Below are positions 8,733-23,862 of a stretch of 23,862 bases of DNA, one piece after another. The translations under genes and the position numbers were made by a program. The stretch is from positions 1-23,862 of the IMG/VR virus record IMGVR_UViG_3300022690_000151. One strand, 5' to 3'. Numbering within the stretch: position 1 is the first letter of the stretch; every line of letters starts with the position of its first letter. The stretch is from a virus. The notes under the pieces are model-generated. The model ran no database searches, had not been told where the DNA came from, and was given only the letters and a program-made list of their open reading frames with translations.

Positions 8733-9389
8733 TTAGTTAAAGTCAGCGTCAGTTAAACGCCTTCTCCTAAAGTAATCGATCCATCTTTGAGACAGACTTC
8801 TTGCTCCGTATCGTTCTTGGATTCGATGAACATCATTATCATTGAGTGCGTTCTTTTTTTTACCGAGATTAAAAGAAGGATACATGATCGACTCTTGGCT
8901 TGTAGTGTCATGTCTCAAGCCGAGGGAGTGGCCAAACTCGTGAATCATAATAGCTGTCAACGGAGGATGAGCTAAGTCTTGGAAATATGCAGACGGAACC
9001 CAATCCCATGTCTCATCATTGATCTCAACGTCTCCGGAGATATTCCCTTGGCCTGGGAACCAAGCATGAGCTAAAACTCCAGGCGAGGCAAATTTAACAA
9101 GAGGTTGAAATGAAACATTGAAATCGACATGAGCTGTCATATTGCGTTCCCTACGAAATTTTAATTTATTAATCCTTAATTGCCAAACTCTCAATGCGAC
9201 AGTGATAGCTCTGATTTGTTGTCGTCCTGGAATATCTGGCGACAGATTGTTTAATCGATAAGAAATGTCTCCGTCTGGCCAACTGTGAGGCCATTCATCA
9301 ACGCCAGGAATTGTCTCAGCAAACTGGATCTTCGTATATGGAAGTTGATCACGCATTTCGGCTGAACAATACACAAACTCGTTTGGCAT
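8733..9389 (-). CDS. Matrixin-like (metzincin) zinc metalloprotease
   Basis: This 218-aa protein is essentially a bare matrix-metalloprotease catalytic domain. It contains the full zinc motif HEFGHSLGLRHD (His150, Glu151, His154, His160), a Met-turn SIMYP (Met169), and the upstream LAHAWFPGQGNISGDVEIND segment (106-125). In matrixins that segment carries structural zinc/calcium ligands before an E-T-W. The early DISYRLNNLSPD and AITVALRVWQ segments are also typical. I see no signal peptide and no Cys-switch propeptide. The C-terminus is basic (YFRRRRL). The gene sits alone behind its own TATA candidate, between a two-helix membrane protein and the fibre unit. Likely roles are a virion-borne or released protease that cuts host surface protein, or a structural maturation protease. 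Confidence 0.92.
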   Translation of the reverse strand: MPNEFVYCSAEMRDQLPYTKIQFAETIPGVDEWPHSWPDGDISYRLNNLSPDIPGRQQIRAITVALRVWQLRINKLKFRRERNMTAHVDFNVSFQPLVKFASPGVLAHAWFPGQGNISGDVEINDETWDWVPSAYFQDLAHPPLTAIMIHEFGHSLGLRHDTTSQESIMYPSFNLGKKKNALNDNDVHRIQERYGARSLSQRWIDYFRRRRLTDADFN

Positions 9390-9410
9390 AAAAAAATTGG
9401 GTAATCCTAA

Positions 9411-9418
9411 GTTATAAG
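9411..9418 (-). promoter_or_regulatory. TATA-like promoter of the metzincin gene
   Basis: The minus-strand sequence CTTATAAC lies in the 42-nt gap before the metzincin. Its TATA begins 27 nt before the ATG, the same spacing as the conserved promoter elements, but the flanks differ (no AACACTTG). No Shine-Dalgarno precedes the ATG, only a T7 run. The divergent element may give this gene separate timing. Confidence 0.4.
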
Positions 9419-9431
9419 AGATACTCAGGAT

Positions 9432-9614
9432 TTATGTGGACTTGCCAGAGGTTCCTTTAACTATTGCCTCGATTTTGTCGCCAATGGCTAATGCTACAAT
9501 CGGAGCAGTTAAAGCAATTATATGAACTGGATCAGTTACGATTCCTTTGATTATGATTAAGGCTACTAGGCCACCATAAACGAGGATTCCTAAATGACGA
9601 GTGCGAATGTTCAT
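9432..9614 (-). CDS. Small two-helix membrane protein, holin-like candidate
   Basis: This 60-aa protein has a short basic N-terminus (MNIRTRH), a first hydrophobic segment at about 8-26 (LGILVYGGLVALIIIKGIV), a short acidic turn (TDP) and a second segment at 31-45 (HIIALTAPIVALAIG). The tail is charged (DKIEAIVKGTSGKST). Size and topology match small holins, but they also match many unrelated small membrane proteins. Its position between two predicted proteases, in a late gene cluster, makes a role in membrane permeabilisation or export plausible. A degenerate copy of the promoter element lies 24 nt upstream. Confidence 0.7.
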   Translation of the reverse strand: MNIRTRHLGILVYGGLVALIIIKGIVTDPVHIIALTAPIVALAIGDKIEAIVKGTSGKST

Positions 9615-9651: not shown

Positions 9652-9975
9652 TTACTCATGCCAGTAAGAATAATCATAGCACTTCCAATGATCATTTAGC
9701 TTAACGTAACAATCAGAATAGAGATATGCGTGAGTAATCTCGTGCCACAAAATAATCATGCCATAATAATCCAAGGCTTGCATACTGGCCTCATGGACTA
9801 TGACTCTCTTTTTGATCACATCGGCACAGCCAGAGGTATGATAGCCTTCGACTTTAGATTTTGGACAAACATTATCTACTGACTCTTGACTTGTTGTAAT
9901 TAATTTCCAATCACAATCATATCCAGAGCCAGCTATAACACAAAGTTGCATAGTAAAAAAAAGAAGTGGGATCAA
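9652..9975 (-). CDS. Secreted HExxH putative zinc metallopeptidase
   Basis: The protein has 107 aa from a TTG start at 9975 that overlaps the upstream TGA as TTGA. This start gives a classic hydrophobic signal or anchor segment at residues 1-16 (MIPLLFFTMQLCVIAG). A longer in-frame start at 10062 would overlap the upstream gene by 91 bases and lose that N-terminal position. The mature part has a helix carrying WHEITHAY (His78, Glu79, His82) and a Cys-rich composition (Cys12, 21, 37, 50, 89, 99) that suggests disulfides and an extracellular location. The third zinc ligand is not certain; Glu or His near the C-terminus (DYSYWHE) are candidates. It is a metallopeptidase by motif only. It belongs to the surface/protease block. 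Confidence 0.7.
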   Translation of the reverse strand: MIPLLFFTMQLCVIAGSGYDCDWKLITTSQESVDNVCPKSKVEGYHTSGCADVIKKRVIVHEASMQALDYYGMIILWHEITHAYLYSDCYVKLNDHWKCYDYSYWHE

Positions 9976-10601
9976 AGGAGTATAAACTCGATTGAGTCCG
10001 TTTTTGCATCGATAGTTATGGACACGGTATATTTGCCGATCAAGGCGTTGTTTGGAATCCAAGCCTCTGATATGTCGCCATCAGATAGAGTCTGACCGAA
10101 CTTGTCCTTGACAAAGTTTCCATCAGGTGCTTTGATAGTTATCAGAAAAGTTTTCTCAGTGAACTCAGTTTGGCCAGTGATAAGAATTGCTCCCACATCT
10201 CTTGGATATCCAGAGGGTTTAGCGTTGAACTTGTTATCCTCGATTTTTAGGTTGAGGTCTATTGTGCTTACAGTTGGTTGAGACGGTGTTGGTAATGTTG
10301 TAACATCTCCTTGTGCTTGCAGTAATGTTACCTTGCCTTGTATGCCATCAACCTTCTCATCTAGTTTCTCAAAGATTTCAGTTAGTGCATCATTATGAGG
10401 TTTCCATTCGTTCTCTGATACAAAGTTTGCATTAAGCCATTCTATCATCGTGCCTTCGCCAACTTCTCGCCAGTTGTATTTGTCAGGAGTTACTTGGTCG
10501 TTCAGTTTCATCATGTTCTGTCCGGCTAATGCTAATGCCAAGACAGCGATTACGGTTGCGACAAAGGCTACTACTAGACCGTAGTTGATTCCTTTAGTCA
10601 T
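9972..10601 (-). CDS. Membrane-anchored surface protein with macroglobulin-like domain
   Basis: This 209-aa protein has an N-terminal membrane helix (about 5-27, INYGLVVAFVATVIAVLALA), a polar region with a short coiled coil (about 68-96), a Pro/Thr-rich linker (TLPTPSQPTVST) and a C-terminal beta domain (about 112-209). That domain reads like a macroglobulin/MG2-type strand set: ILITGQTEFTEKTFLITIKA, then P-D-G-N-F, then IGKYTVSITID. Such anchored domains are typical of thaumarchaeal surface proteins, which hints at host mimicry or a host-derived gene. The ATG at 10601 has AAGGAG at good spacing and overlaps the stop of the 32-aa gene (ATGA). An earlier in-frame ATG at 10637 lacks such support. 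Confidence 0.75.
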   Translation of the reverse strand: MTKGINYGLVVAFVATVIAVLALALAGQNMMKLNDQVTPDKYNWREVGEGTMIEWLNANFVSENEWKPHNDALTEIFEKLDEKVDGIQGKVTLLQAQGDVTTLPTPSQPTVSTIDLNLKIEDNKFNAKPSGYPRDVGAILITGQTEFTEKTFLITIKAPDGNFVKDKFGQTLSDGDISEAWIPNNALIGKYTVSITIDAKTDSIEFILL

Positions 10602-16578: not shown

Positions 16579-18735
16579 TTATAACGGTTCAATGGCTGTC
16601 ACCTTAACTCCAGGCGTTGCCGGAGATATCCAATTACCTCTAAACATCATACCTCTTGGATCTGTGACAACCCAAGTCAACCCTATTCCGTCAAGCTCAC
16701 CGAGTATGACTCCCTCTGGCACAAGAAAACACTCACAGCTCGTGCCGTCCTCACAATCTGGACACTCGACAGTTTCATTTCTTGGAGCTCCTCCGTTAAT
16801 TGATACGGCTGTGATTACATTGTCATTGATTGCCTGGAGGACTTCTGGATCTTCTTCATGCACAATCATTTGAATCTCGTTTCTCTCTTTGTCAAATTCA
16901 GAATCCAGGACTTGAGCATTAGTTCTATGTTCTACATGATGATTAATGTCCATATTCATACCTACGGCTGTGCGTGCCATAGCGTGTAGCTCATCAGGCT
17001 TGAGCCATCTCCTCAACGGTTCTCCGTCTTGCCTATGATCTGTTATTGCCTCACTACTTGCACGAATCAAGAACATTCGGCCAGGAGCATCGACAGATTT
17101 AACTCGGTTAAGATAATCCTCAGAGAGCCATCTAAAGTCTTGACGAATATTCTCGATAGCTTCTTGTATTTTTCTAAAGTTAGTTGAATATGTTTTCTTA
17201 GTGAGTCCTCCGTCTGGCTTGACTTTGTGCAATTCTCCCTTCTTGCTTGCTTTGTTAATTTCTCGATTAACGTCTTTGATATGATCTCTCTCGTGTTGAG
17301 TCGTAAAGCTTGGCTTATCAGCAATTCCTTTGACAAACTCCCAAGTGCATTTACAATTTGGATGAGTATTGGTATATCCTAATCCCTCGCTTGGAGGGAC
17401 TGGACGGTTATTCTTATCTAGTAAATCAAACGTGCGTCCGTCATAACCCTCACAGATTTCTGGAAATTCATGTCCATGATAAGTGAACTTAGCTAGGAGT
17501 TGGAGTTTAGGCTGAGACAAAACATAGCCAGACACTCCAGTCATTGACGCTCCGGCAAGTAGTGGGAGCCACGGCAATAGAATATCTAATCGTCTGTCTT
17601 TTTCTTTTTTCTTTTGTTCTGGCGTATCGCCTGGGATATCGGCAATAGAAATATCAAGTTGCTGTCTGTGAGTTATAGCTTCTTCAAGTTTGTCGTCAAC
17701 GTCCTTGACTACCATGTGTGGATCGTCCTCAAACTCTGGAGAGCTAACTACCATGTGTGGCATTTCAATAGGATCATTAGGCTTGTTCTTGTTGCCGTGC
17801 AAGTAATCAGCTCGTGCATGATCTAAGATAGGAGCTAATGAGTGGTCAGTTATCATGTCGCTTTTTGTAGTTCCATGTTTTACCCACTGGCCAGTTCTTT
17901 TGTCACGTTCAATGATTAACTCTCTAAGATTTGGAGGGGCTCCTCCTTGGGATTGTTCGATATCGTATTGCCACTCTGGAATTGATTTATCGTAATTGAA
18001 TCCAGTCGTGCCAATAGTCGGAGTCTCGGCCGGAGGCTCAAAGGGAGCTGTGTCATAGTTCTTAGTGTTTTGATTCTCATAAGGAATTGGTTGACTTTTT
18101 GTAATCATAATGTTTGGCTCGTTAGTTTTGTATTGCCATAAATTCTCAACGTCACGTCCTCCGGCATAACCTTCCGTAACTATTGGAGGATCTGGATTCT
18201 TGTGATCAAAGCCGTCATTGTCAAACGGTGATGTAACTGCAAACACTGGCAAAGGTAAGATTGGAGGATATCCAGTATCGGGAACCTCTGGACGAATAGC
18301 CGGGACGACATTCTCTTGAGGTTGATTCTTCCAATCATGTTCATTGACATTTAGTAATTGTGAGTATTCGCTAACGATTGCACGTTTTGATTCCATAGGA
18401 GGAATCCCTTGAGTATAGAGAAGAAACTCATAACGATCTATAATACTACTGACAAGCTGGCTCATTGGCTCTGACTTGAATACTGGCTCTATTCTGTCAA
18501 CGTTGCCGAGTGCCTCTTGAATTGTCATTGGACGATAATTTACTTCGACTTTAGTGAGAGGAGGATCAACTTCTGTGAACATTGAATGAACTACGTCTCC
18601 AAAATTATACTGATCACAAAGATCCTCAGCTTCGATTCGGCCTTGGACTAGTGTGCATTTACCTCCGGCTACAAAGTGACGACAGTTGCCACAGCTAGCA
18701 CTATCTTGTTTCTTTTCTAAGTGCGTTAAGGACAT
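16579..18735 (-). CDS. Mu F-like head protein fused to XkdF-like prohead protease
   Basis: From ATG 18735 the protein has 718 aa. Residues 15-40 form a four-Cys motif (CGNC ... GKCTLVQG ... LC) seen in some phage head proteins. A long polar linker follows. Near 387-405 is a hydrophobic stretch (LPWLPLLAGASMTG). At about 425-470 comes a Mu F/SPP1 gp7-like signature: EICEGYDGRTFDLLD, then THPNCKC. Residues 555-718 look like an XkdF-type serine protease, with NMDINHH as the probable catalytic His region and ITAVSING as the probable Ser. A Cys cluster (CPDCEDGTSCEC) is inserted near 658-669. It would process scaffold and act inside the procapsid. The start overlaps the 341-aa gene by 35 nt; a TTG at 18741 is an alternative. 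Confidence 0.78.
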   Translation of the reverse strand: MSLTHLEKKQDSASCGNCRHFVAGGKCTLVQGRIEAEDLCDQYNFGDVVHSMFTEVDPPLTKVEVNYRPMTIQEALGNVDRIEPVFKSEPMSQLVSSIIDRYEFLLYTQGIPPMESKRAIVSEYSQLLNVNEHDWKNQPQENVVPAIRPEVPDTGYPPILPLPVFAVTSPFDNDGFDHKNPDPPIVTEGYAGGRDVENLWQYKTNEPNIMITKSQPIPYENQNTKNYDTAPFEPPAETPTIGTTGFNYDKSIPEWQYDIEQSQGGAPPNLRELIIERDKRTGQWVKHGTTKSDMITDHSLAPILDHARADYLHGNKNKPNDPIEMPHMVVSSPEFEDDPHMVVKDVDDKLEEAITHRQQLDISIADIPGDTPEQKKKEKDRRLDILLPWLPLLAGASMTGVSGYVLSQPKLQLLAKFTYHGHEFPEICEGYDGRTFDLLDKNNRPVPPSEGLGYTNTHPNCKCTWEFVKGIADKPSFTTQHERDHIKDVNREINKASKKGELHKVKPDGGLTKKTYSTNFRKIQEAIENIRQDFRWLSEDYLNRVKSVDAPGRMFLIRASSEAITDHRQDGEPLRRWLKPDELHAMARTAVGMNMDINHHVEHRTNAQVLDSEFDKERNEIQMIVHEEDPEVLQAINDNVITAVSINGGAPRNETVECPDCEDGTSCECFLVPEGVILGELDGIGLTWVVTDPRGMMFRGNWISPATPGVKVTAIEPL

Positions 18736-19726
18736 TATCAAAACTCGGACTTGAGCCTATCGTTTCGCTCGTTCCTTCTTTAGGATTTTCTTTGTAGTAA
18801 AACCTCGGTTTTCCTCCCTTGTAAGTTACTTTTCTCTCAAGTGTTGTCCCGGACTCTTTTCTCTCTTTTACTTTAGCAAGTTGCTTTTTTGTAGTGTTTA
18901 AATTTGCACTGTTATTGCTCATCTCATAATATTTTGCATCGCCTAATTGATTACGATTCTTGTAGTCTCTTGCCGGGAATTTAATAATCTTTTTCCAGTA
19001 ATCTTGTTGATTTTCCAAATATGTTATTTTCTTCTCATACTTCTCAATGGCCTTCGGATCATCTTGGAATATTGTCCCTCCGGCTCCCTCTGGCCTTTTT
19101 GGCTTGGGAACGTCTTTGTTTCTTCTCTCAATTTCTGCATAGAATTTTTCATTACTGTCGTTTCTATACCAATCCTTGAAGTCTTTTTTTCCGGCTTTAA
19201 TTCCTTTAACTAAATCTTTTTCACTCATGTCATGTTCTGGAGCAAACAAGTGAGCATCAGCCGGAGTATATGGTTTAGAGGGTTTTTTTTCTCCTTGCTT
19301 TGCTAGAAAACTCTTAACAACTTCGTCTTTGTTCTCTCCCTTCTTGATTGGTATGTGTGCTCCTCTAACAGTAATCCACTCAGTATCGTCCTCAGCCTCT
19401 TGCATAAGTGCCTCATGTAATTTGTTAAACGTGTCACACTCACACATATTCTCTGACAATTTTTGATCTTCGTGACGTTTGCCTCCAACTGATTGAGCTG
19501 ACAGTCCTCCTCCGATTGCCACGGCCTCTCGTTCTAACCTATCGAGATCAGTAGAGGGAGGCTTGTAGATTCCAGTAGCTTCCTTTTCTCCTGGTTGAAC
19601 AATATCGAAGGGAGGATATGGTTTTTTGTTTATCTCTTTGAGTGCATCTGTGCAAATTGCCCATGCTGAATCGACTCCCTTTTGTCCCTTGACGGATTGC
19701 ACACAACTATCTAATTTTTCAGGCAT
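18701..19726 (-). CDS. Portal-adjacent head protein, basic helical (341 aa)
   Basis: The N-terminus (LDSCVQSVKGQKGVDSAWAICTDAL, residues 5-29; two Cys) is a short motif often seen at the start or end of phage head-morphogenesis proteins. A second motif, WITVRGAHIPIKKG (about 117-130) followed by a helix, resembles the 'phage minor head protein' linker segments. The rest is Lys/Glu-rich and helical (KYEKKITYLENQQDYWKK) with a Gly-rich linker near 215, suggesting a scaffold-like or minor head role. The ATG at 19726 has GAGGG 8 nt upstream and overlaps the 37-aa gene by 16 nt. It lies directly before the Mu F-protease gene and probably works with it. The function is inferred. Confidence 0.65.
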   Translation of the reverse strand: MPEKLDSCVQSVKGQKGVDSAWAICTDALKEINKKPYPPFDIVQPGEKEATGIYKPPSTDLDRLEREAVAIGGGLSAQSVGGKRHEDQKLSENMCECDTFNKLHEALMQEAEDDTEWITVRGAHIPIKKGENKDEVVKSFLAKQGEKKPSKPYTPADAHLFAPEHDMSEKDLVKGIKAGKKDFKDWYRNDSNEKFYAEIERRNKDVPKPKRPEGAGGTIFQDDPKAIEKYEKKITYLENQQDYWKKIIKFPARDYKNRNQLGDAKYYEMSNNSANLNTTKKQLAKVKERKESGTTLERKVTYKGGKPRFYYKENPKEGTSETIGSSPSFDNVLNALRKETR

Positions 19727-22367: not shown

Positions 22368-22511
22368 TCAAATTAAATCGTCCAAGTGTGGAATTTTTAG
22401 ATCGTTACAAATTGCGACAAAACTTATCTTTGCTAACAAATCTTTTGAGGTAACACGAGTCTCTTTAATGTAGTTTCTAGCGTTTTCTTTTTCTCGTGCC
22501 AAATATCGCAT
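22368..22511 (-). CDS. 47-aa gene overlapping the terminase 3' end
   Basis: The frame runs from ATG 22511 to TGA 22368 and encodes MRYLAREKENARNYIKETRV, then a helix DLLAKISFVAICNDLKIPHL. A GGGAGG lies just before the ATG and would suit a TTG start three codons later better. The first 35 nt overlap the terminase coding end, while the remaining 109 nt lie in a stretch with no other gene. Helical, no Cys motif. It fills the otherwise empty gap and is probably real. The function is unknown. Confidence 0.5.
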   Translation of the reverse strand: MRYLAREKENARNYIKETRVTSKDLLAKISFVAICNDLKIPHLDDLI

Positions 22512-23862
22512 ACCTCCCACTGTCATAATTTGTGTCAGCTATAATAGCATATATCAAACTCATCACGGAATCTTTTGGATGATTAAATTCCTTGCGAGCT
22601 CTCTGTCTTGGATCTTCGACAGTCTGATCGATATCCTCATCGATATCTTTTCGTGTCGTTGCACAAAAATCGTCCAAGAGAAAATCGCATTGATAGTCTA
22701 GCTTGTGAGGTATGATTAGTTTAGTTCGTTTGAGAGCTTCTTCGTTTGGCCTAGTTGGATGAGAGACGTATGTGCCAAGAAAATCTATAAAGTTTTGAAT
22801 CACTGTCGTCTTATCGATCTGTAATCGTCCAAGCTCTGTGCCGTGCTCATCAGTGTCTTGTTTGTATTTCATCTCAGGCTTTGTCTCATCTCCAATAGTT
22901 CGACAACCCATAAACAAACGTCTCCCTAGTCCTTTGAACTTAACATCATGCGAGTCTCGTCCTCCGTCTTGAATTACTTTGACTTGAATAGCTCCGTATC
23001 CAAGGTCGCCAACTGCATAATCCACATTGTAACTTTTTCCAAGTTCTGCGATATATCTTGACTGATCAAGTTGATGTTCTTGAGGTCGAGACTCGATCCA
23101 CGCAATCTGATAACGCTCAGATTTTCGCCATCGAATAAGAACTGTAATAACGGTTTTTCCTTGTGCTTTGCCAGAGCCAAAGTCAACTCCCATGACAACT
23201 CGGATTTCATTACCATAACACGCCTTGAGGAAATTAACTTCTTTAGGAGATAAAAGTGTCAAGTAATTGTTATAACAAGCACTGACCATAGCCGGAGTGA
23301 TCGGCCTTCGTTCGGCTTTGTAAAACGTTCCGTAACAGTGTGATTGTAAAACAGAGTGAGGAGAATATTTCTCTTGATACTCAATGGAAAACTCTGGATT
23401 AATGTTATGAAGCTGTGCGTCCTCAATAGTTCTTGGAATCATTGGAAAAATTGTTTGAGGTAAATGATAGCCTCTATGCTGAGTATTCTCTGGCTTTTGT
23501 GCAATCCATCGGCCATTTAGAATAACCTTCAATTCATCAGCGTCATTGATGATAAAGCCTTGAGCGTCTCGCTCTATTTTCTCATACCAAAACTTATCCT
23601 CATAAATCCACTCACGCTGATCTGTTTTCTCCCATTCTTTGTGATACTCACTCCCGGCCTCTCCTCCAATGCCGAGCATCCAGAAACGTCCGTGTGTTTG
23701 AAACAGTGCATATTTACCTCTGACTAAAAATTGAATGTCTTGATATTGTGCCTCATCCAGTATTAGAGCGATTAATGATTTGCCCTCTACCTTCTTGTAT
23801 TGTCCTTCGTCTGTCACTAGATAAATAGCTGAATCATTGACTAAAGAAAACTCTCCGATGTT
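22477..23862 (-). CDS. terL: Terminase large subunit, N-terminal part missing
   Basis: The frame is open to the right window edge, so the true start and the Walker A region are outside; the GTG at 23817 is just an internal codon. The 461 visible residues start within the ATPase. IALILDEAQ is a Walker B motif with its catalytic Glu (about residues 31-39). The C-terminal nuclease has its three acidic sites: MGVDFGSGKAQGKT (Asp near 227), AVGDLGYGAIQ (Asp near 286) and HPKDSVMSLIYA (Asp near 431). These make an RNase H-like metal site that cuts DNA during packaging. The protein ends in a basic tail. It cuts and pumps DNA into the procapsid through the portal. Confidence 0.93.
   Translation of the reverse strand, partial: NIGEFSLVNDSAIYLVTDEGQYKKVEGKSLIALILDEAQYQDIQFLVRGKYALFQTHGRFWMLGIGGEAGSEYHKEWEKTDQREWIYEDKFWYEKIERDAQGFIINDADELKVILNGRWIAQKPENTQHRGYHLPQTIFPMIPRTIEDAQLHNINPEFSIEYQEKYSPHSVLQSHCYGTFYKAERRPITPAMVSACYNNYLTLLSPKEVNFLKACYGNEIRVVMGVDFGSGKAQGKTVITVLIRWRKSERYQIAWIESRPQEHQLDQSRYIAELGKSYNVDYAVGDLGYGAIQVKVIQDGGRDSHDVKFKGLGRRLFMGCRTIGDETKPEMKYKQDTDEHGTELGRLQIDKTTVIQNFIDFLGTYVSHPTRPNEEALKRTKLIIPHKLDYQCDFLLDDFCATTRKDIDEDIDQTVEDPRQRARKEFNHPKDSVMSLIYAIIADTNYDSGRYAIFGTRKRKR

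Follow-up and report, generated by a model that had tools for sequence, protein, structure and literature searches.

According to a 2015 review, an S-layer surrounds the cells of most archaea, which have no peptidoglycan; the review also put forward a holin combined with an S-layer protease for archaeal viruses, calling the enzymes unknown (PMC4456609). The exit of tailed viruses from archaea that have only an S-layer has remained an open question. Archaeal exit systems include pseudomurein endoisopeptidase (Pei), which cleaves that polymer, and the pyramid-forming PVAP (PMC12596118, PMC4456609); enzymes of the first kind, PVAP, putative structure-based holins and other lytic proteins are among the entries for archaeal viruses in a 2025 survey of viral lytic proteins (PMC12596118). 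In the haloarchaeal virus HFTV1, gp33 (110 aa, two transmembrane (TM) segments) and gp34 (52 aa) are encoded between the neck and tail genes, on a transcript proposed to act in lysis (PMC12542753). All of these concern exit from archaea, as is proposed for the locus described here, but Pei and PVAP are a pseudomurein cutter and a pyramid builder, and gp33–gp34 includes no protease.

In bacteria, the holin–endolysin cassettes of phages resemble this locus in the tight coupling of a small membrane gene to an unsignalled enzyme, with exchangeable membrane partners and varied enzymes per slot. They differ in that the enzyme here is a protease, its presumed substrate a protein wall, and the membrane proteins match no holin family; holins are described as highly diverse (PMC4456609). 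The Listeria Mtz–Tim pair, as reported, is a phage-linked metzincin with a TIMP-like partner that raises sensitivity to lysis (PMC8235301). Mtz likewise has the HExxHxxGxxH motif and in prophages often lies beside holin–lysin genes; unlike the protein described here, it is secreted by a signal peptide, acts beside a peptidoglycan lysin and has a lipoprotein as its partner (PMC8235301).

The enzyme itself shares its fold, zinc motif and Met-turn with karilysin and the animal MMPs (M10). It differs from these in having neither a signal peptide nor the PRCGVPD motif and only one of the four structural-zinc ligands, and the viral matrixins differ further in their short leader with an invariant cysteine, mostly basic C-terminal tail and adjoining small membrane gene. 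The matrixins of granulovirus, ascovirus, entomopoxvirus and nudivirus are likewise virus-encoded and give the best viral fold matches, but they belong to insect viruses rather than archaeal head-tail viruses, and most of the matches listed are longer proteins. No report of archaeal tailed viruses with a matrixin or metzincin, or of viral lysis by an S-layer protease, was listed in the literature searched, which did not cover most subscription papers.

The window, that is the whole stretch of DNA analysed, is a complete linear virus record of 23,862 bases. On balance, its gene linkage and sequence motifs lead us to favour the reading that its matrixin is probably the enzyme of a holin-plus-S-layer-protease lysis pair, in the role of an endolysin, in a head-tail virus of Nitrososphaeria.

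Gene layout and the matrixin

The long genes of the window lie on the minus strand, in the order TerL, putative portal, maturation-like, scaffold and capsid genes, followed by a variable region of membrane and fibre-like genes (Table 1). Pfam gave no usable function for the other structural proteins of the window, so the names capsid, portal, scaffold, decoration and neck were assigned from gene order.

Table 1. Features of the window discussed in the text
Feature	Position	Strand	Basis or remark
Terminase large subunit (TerL)	22477-23862	-	phrog_675, E 3e-14
Maturation-like protein	16579-18741		Weak match to phrog_595 (head-maturation family), E 5.5e-5
388-aa protein, one N-terminal TM or signal segment	10693-11859	-	Membership of the system suggested by gene order
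221-aa protein, one N-terminal TM segment	9972-10637	-	No confident family
Small HExxH protein (HEITHA), hydrophobic N-terminal segment	9652-10062	-	True start probably internal
60-aa protein, two predicted TM segments	9432-9614	-	Resembles a holin in size and place only; no family hit
Matrixin (M10-like metzincin), 218 aa, ATG start, no signal peptide	8733-9389	-	PF00413 profile, fold model
Cys8 codon, N-terminal leader, possible cysteine switch	9366-9368	-	Invariant in 23/23; sole Cys of the protein
Zinc-binding motif HEFGHSLGLRH, residues 150-160	8910-8942	-	Coordinates computed from the ORF
Met-turn SIMYP, residues 167-171	8877-8891	-	M169 nearly invariant
C-terminal tail, residues 195-218, predicted helix 201-212	8736-8807	-	Net charge +3

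By every sequence and fold test run, the window protein is a matrixin. Residues 37-195 match positions 2-159 of the 159 in the PF00413 (Peptidase_M10) profile at E 4.9e-25 (score 88.7 bits; cut-off 24), and 103 distinct PDB sequences match the protein at E<=1e-3, headed by stromelysin-1 (1e-16). An AlphaFold model built from 15 relatives has a mean pLDDT of 85.8 and a pTM of 0.87. The solved structure closest to this confident matrixin fold is karilysin (Z 18.1, rmsd 1.9, 157 residues aligned), then MMP-1 (Z 18.0), with MMPs in general at about 17-18; in Foldseek, too, MMPs lead the solved structures, and insect-virus matrixins lead among viral proteins. The open reading frame is not a chance one, because relatives encode a matrixin at the same place and because the codons of the L015 and L017 matrixins differ by 27 synonymous and 7 non-synonymous changes.

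The initial annotation had described an active metzincin without a signal peptide, and this description largely stands. The HEFGHSLGLRHD motif and the SIMYP Met-turn are both present, the profile match and the fold model are those of an active-looking enzyme, and no N-terminal hydrophobic segment or signal peptide passes a Kyte–Doolittle scan, a test of hydropathy rather than a dedicated predictor. The claim that the structural-site segment is intact does not survive alignment with MMP-3: of the four structural-zinc ligands only the histidine of LAHA is kept, and the four-ligand site of animal MMPs is lacking.

The 42-nt gap ahead of the matrixin (9390-9431) contains a TTATAA some 28 nt upstream of the ATG and, immediately ahead of that start codon, a T tract; this may perhaps be a promoter. 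T-rich leaders also precede the starts of several relatives.

The leader cysteine and the C-terminal tail

When 23 viral-type matrixins are aligned, with identity to the window protein falling as low as 19%, only eight columns are invariant: Cys8, D89, F94 and the zinc-motif residues H150, E151, H154, G157 and H160. The alignment leaves out L015 (a near copy of L017), L086 (translation identical to L013), L091 (domain identical to L090), L302 (cut by the contig end), L254 and L264 (frame broken by a stop) and L303 (340 aa, judged to be of non-viral type). Around Cys8 the leader varies in both length and letters. As far as they were read, the window protein and L298, L239, L299, L263 and L039 contain no cysteine besides Cys8 (L263 being partly masked); wherever the reading is complete, this rules out a disulphide within the molecule. 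Binding of Cys8 to zinc would be the simplest reason for its invariance, making a minimal cysteine switch in the short leader possible; the fold alignments of the model to proMMP-1 and proMMP-3 start only from residue 14. The earlier statement that there is no Cys-switch propeptide therefore holds as far as PRCGVPD is concerned, this motif being absent from the matrixin ORF, but is weakened by the invariant cysteine of the leader.

The basic C-terminal tail is a second unexplained feature of the viral-type matrixins; it is net positive in 22 of the 23 and has zero net charge in L300.

Departures from the active-site pattern are seen in a few relatives. One additional residue lies within the zinc motif in L031 (14194-14838), L082 (1348-2094) and L250 (1369-2076), and a Leu is found in the Met-turn of L039 (13390-14199). 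These four copies may be inactive or altered, the first possibility being raised by the three of 23 with the extra zinc-motif residue.

Distribution in related viruses

A scan of IMG/VR with the single matrixin sequence returned no relative and tblastn of phage records none. These blanks are ascribed to patterns that were too strict, because profile searches of related records found many matrixins. Scanning genome contigs with the capsid protein, and phage records with portal and capsid, likewise gave nothing, and scans with the L006 slot protein (see below) and the L010 matrixin returned known records only. The window capsid protein found 48 loci and the terminase 24. PF00413 is over its cut-off in 11 of the 48 capsid records and in none of the 18 terminase records searched (one of which, G001, was already in the capsid set); the 37 capsid-related records with no matrixin include many fragments. 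A narrower alignment gave 11 loci, five of them new, and all four of the new records searched contained the PF00413 family.

In seven records (the window, L013, L015, L017, L019, L031 and L040) the matrixin lies a few kilobases beyond the capsid gene, and divergent forms occupy the same interval in L010, L011 and L039. It is located elsewhere in the record in L078 (G035) and L082 (G033). In L263 it comes soon after TerL, in L259 it follows tail genes, and in L089 it lies upstream of a recombinase-like gene.

The genes upstream of the matrixin also have counterparts. In L019 and L040 a homologue of the window 60-aa protein is encoded immediately ahead of the matrixin, and short HExxH proteins resembling the 9652-10062 product lie upstream in L005, L006, L010, L013, L019, L031 and L040. 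Aligned proteins of about 330-385 aa, in a position like that of the 388-aa protein, are found at nine other loci.

In L036 and L107 the 723-aa counterpart of the maturation-like protein contains the motif HEVGHAIVADL.

The small membrane gene upstream of the matrixin

The gene directly upstream (-1) in the window encodes 60 aa with two TM segments. Taking as the criterion an ORF of <=180 aa with at least one TM segment predicted by a simple hydropathy cut, 12 of the 18 matrixin loci tabulated have a small membrane protein at -1, compared with 44 of 675 for background genes of >=100 aa in the same kind of records; for proteins with at least two TM segments the counts are 9/18 and 18/675. Inspection by eye of the six loci without such a gene showed that in L011 a hydrophobic ORF is masked by an overlapping frame, that L010 and L092 have hydrophobic proteins of 67 and 53 aa below the threshold, and that a three-TM ORF lies two genes up in L263 and a two-TM ORF four genes up in L039; L107 has none. 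Six further copies in host genomes are divided, with a TM protein at -1 in L297 and L300 but not in L296, L298, L299 or L301. For HExxH genes as a whole, with L007, L015 and L043 omitted as near copies, a scripted count placed a small TM gene ahead of 12/31, compared with 33/665 genes without the motif (Fisher p 7e-8, this and the other linkage p-values being too good because the viruses are related).

No fewer than three unrelated families are represented among the -1 proteins. Family-B proteins lie ahead of the matrixin in L017 and also in L082/L108, where the matrixin shares only 20-25% identity with that of the window, and a family-C protein is common to L089 and the genome locus L261. Of the 19 pairs read, six (L005, L007, L015, L017, L019 and L108) have a 4-nt overlap between the stop of one gene and the start of the next.

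Assignment of the -1 proteins to a known holin family was rejected, as those scanned against the holin families of Pfam, NCBIfam and PHROG gave no match. A defence function was also set aside: PADLOC found nothing for five window proteins and one weak match for an L089 membrane protein (CARF-TM model, E 0.0016).

Other HExxH proteins in the place of the matrixin

L005, L006 and L007 have no PF00413 match, yet their surroundings are those of the matrixin loci. A protein of about 340 aa with an N-terminal TM segment is followed by a small HExxH protein, a family-B two-TM protein and a 181-196-aa protein with the motif HEALHAGC, which occupies the place of the matrixin; the gene downstream of it looks the same as in L010 and L011. 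In L274, a contig of G073, a 61-aa one-TM gene is followed by a 209-aa HExxH protein, and the portal, maturation-like, decoration and capsid genes match profiles of the window family. The L006 and G073 slot proteins reach no Pfam cut-off and do not align with each other (E 0.17), and the AlphaFold model of the former has a pLDDT of 33.8; exchange of the enzyme is for these reasons a reading of gene order and motif rather than of fold.

Hosts

Two relatives, G022 and G045, encode PCNA. Among 26 archaeal genomes the four best matches to it bear Nitrososphaerales or Thaumarchaeota names (E 4e-41 to 2e-37, 35-38% identity), followed by a Bathyarchaeota-named genome (7.5e-23). The Thaumarchaeota-named G072 reached only 9e-15, and the two Poseidoniales-named genomes gave no match and 1e-7. 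Of 400 genomes from the class to which G073 belongs, 4 contain the capsid protein and 10 have viral-type matrixins of at least 75 bits. Virus-type tail genes adjoin the matrixin in G175 (in the chromosome) and G180 (on a 19-kb contig), and the G144 locus has the look of a head-tail provirus by gene order, the matrixin being the only gene there that matched profiles. The PCNA, capsid and provirus evidence points to Nitrososphaeria as hosts of the relatives, and from these we infer the same host for the window virus. Nitrosopumilus maritimus, an ammonia oxidiser, is reported to have an S-layer (PMC11153153).

Other matrixin types are common in the class of G073 (L241-L258), where PF00413 is over its cut-off in 149 of 200 genomes, several with multiple copies; a signal or membrane segment was seen by eye in most of the 20 non-viral-type host matrixins read. 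At the G175 locus (L259:13092-19901 and L260:1-11231) host-looking genes flank virus-type tail genes, a gene for one TM segment, the matrixin and four large paralogues with signal peptides. No capsid genes were seen on this chromosome, and the locus is perhaps a remnant or a tail-like element. The viral-type matrixins with a leader cysteine in L296, L298, L299 and L301 are in Nitrososphaeria genomes, some beside ordinary-looking host genes; several look like solitary chromosomal copies, and domestication is possible.

Discussion

A holin–endolysin arrangement fits an enzyme that has to get from within the cell to the S-layer, has no signal of its own and is accompanied by a small membrane protein. 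The matrixin would be made in the cytoplasm, where the invariant leader cysteine may hold its zinc site shut until release. Late in infection the small membrane protein encoded upstream would open the cytoplasmic membrane in the fashion of a holin, and the freed protease would reach and cut the S-layer, allowing the virions to exit: an endolysin made from a protease. Matrixins require zinc and calcium, and sea water would therefore favour activity after release. Pore formation, latency, the S-layer as substrate and the lysis role are what we infer here, the last because the matrixin is linked to small membrane genes. In favour of lysis, the position of the gene varies while the small membrane partner recurs, the -1 families are unrelated, and other HExxH proteins stand in the slot behind a membrane gene. 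Against it are the six of 18 loci without a qualifying gene at -1, the four of six extra host-genome copies without a TM gene there, the lack of a holin family match, the three of 23 relatives whose zinc motif is longer by one residue and the 37 of 48 capsid-related records that show no matrixin.

The initial annotation, noting the fibre genes, had proposed that the enzyme cuts S-layer protein during entry or exit, or trims fibre proteins. The recurrent neighbour is not a fibre, however, but the small membrane protein directly upstream; the neighbourhood favours the exit option, and entry and fibre trimming have gained no specific support, the position of the gene being variable. A matrixin carried in the virion could perforate the S-layer when infection begins, in the manner of virion-bound hydrolases, and a virion protein needs no signal peptide and could well be encoded in the structural cluster beside fibre-like genes, as in the window and its relatives. 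We consider such an entry function rather unlikely, since the gene moves while its membrane partner stays with it, the protein is not fused to a fibre or binding domain, and most relatives that retain the capsid genes are without it. The last point also bears on maturation of capsid, scaffold or fibre proteins, which would suit the place of the gene between the capsid and fibre/neck genes in the window and several relatives but is quite improbable given that 37 of 48 records with the same capsid lack the matrixin, that in others it is outside the cluster, and that the window has a separate, if weakly matched, phrog_595-like protein.

Two further possibilities leave out lysis or the S-layer. 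Together with its secreted neighbours the matrixin might strip receptors or S-layer proteins from the cell surface, for instance to block superinfection; there are several TM or secreted proteins upstream, and the solitary viral-type copies in host chromosomes could have been domesticated for such a use. This we find improbable, as a matrixin without an export signal could get to the surface only through a pore or upon lysis. Alternatively the protease might cut, and so switch on, the adjacent membrane protein, with the S-layer not its substrate at all. The tight pairing with diverse membrane proteins would be explained, but no common cut site is visible by eye across their families and holins are not generally known to need a protease, making a protease-activated pore highly improbable.

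If the matrixin does act in lysis as the protease of a holin-like pair, it is conceivable, and here we are more doubtful, that it represents a general lysis module of head-tail viruses of Nitrososphaeria. Diverse holin-like proteins would release an interchangeable cytoplasmic zinc protease, either a matrixin kept latent by its leader cysteine or another HExxH enzyme, which would then digest the S-layer with the aid of a small secreted HExxH protein and a secreted protein of about 350 aa. Such a module would amount to an endolysin strategy re-created for a wall of protein. Ammonia-oxidising archaea are key organisms of marine nitrification, and the locus supplies a definite enzyme with its partner gene, both open to expression and to trials on cultured members of this group.

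Related records carry further genes, among them three tRNA genes (Gln, Gln, His) in G043 (L104:17909-18133) and MT-A70-type methyltransferase and PAPS-reductase-like genes at L094:15066-15743 and L103:3893-4729.
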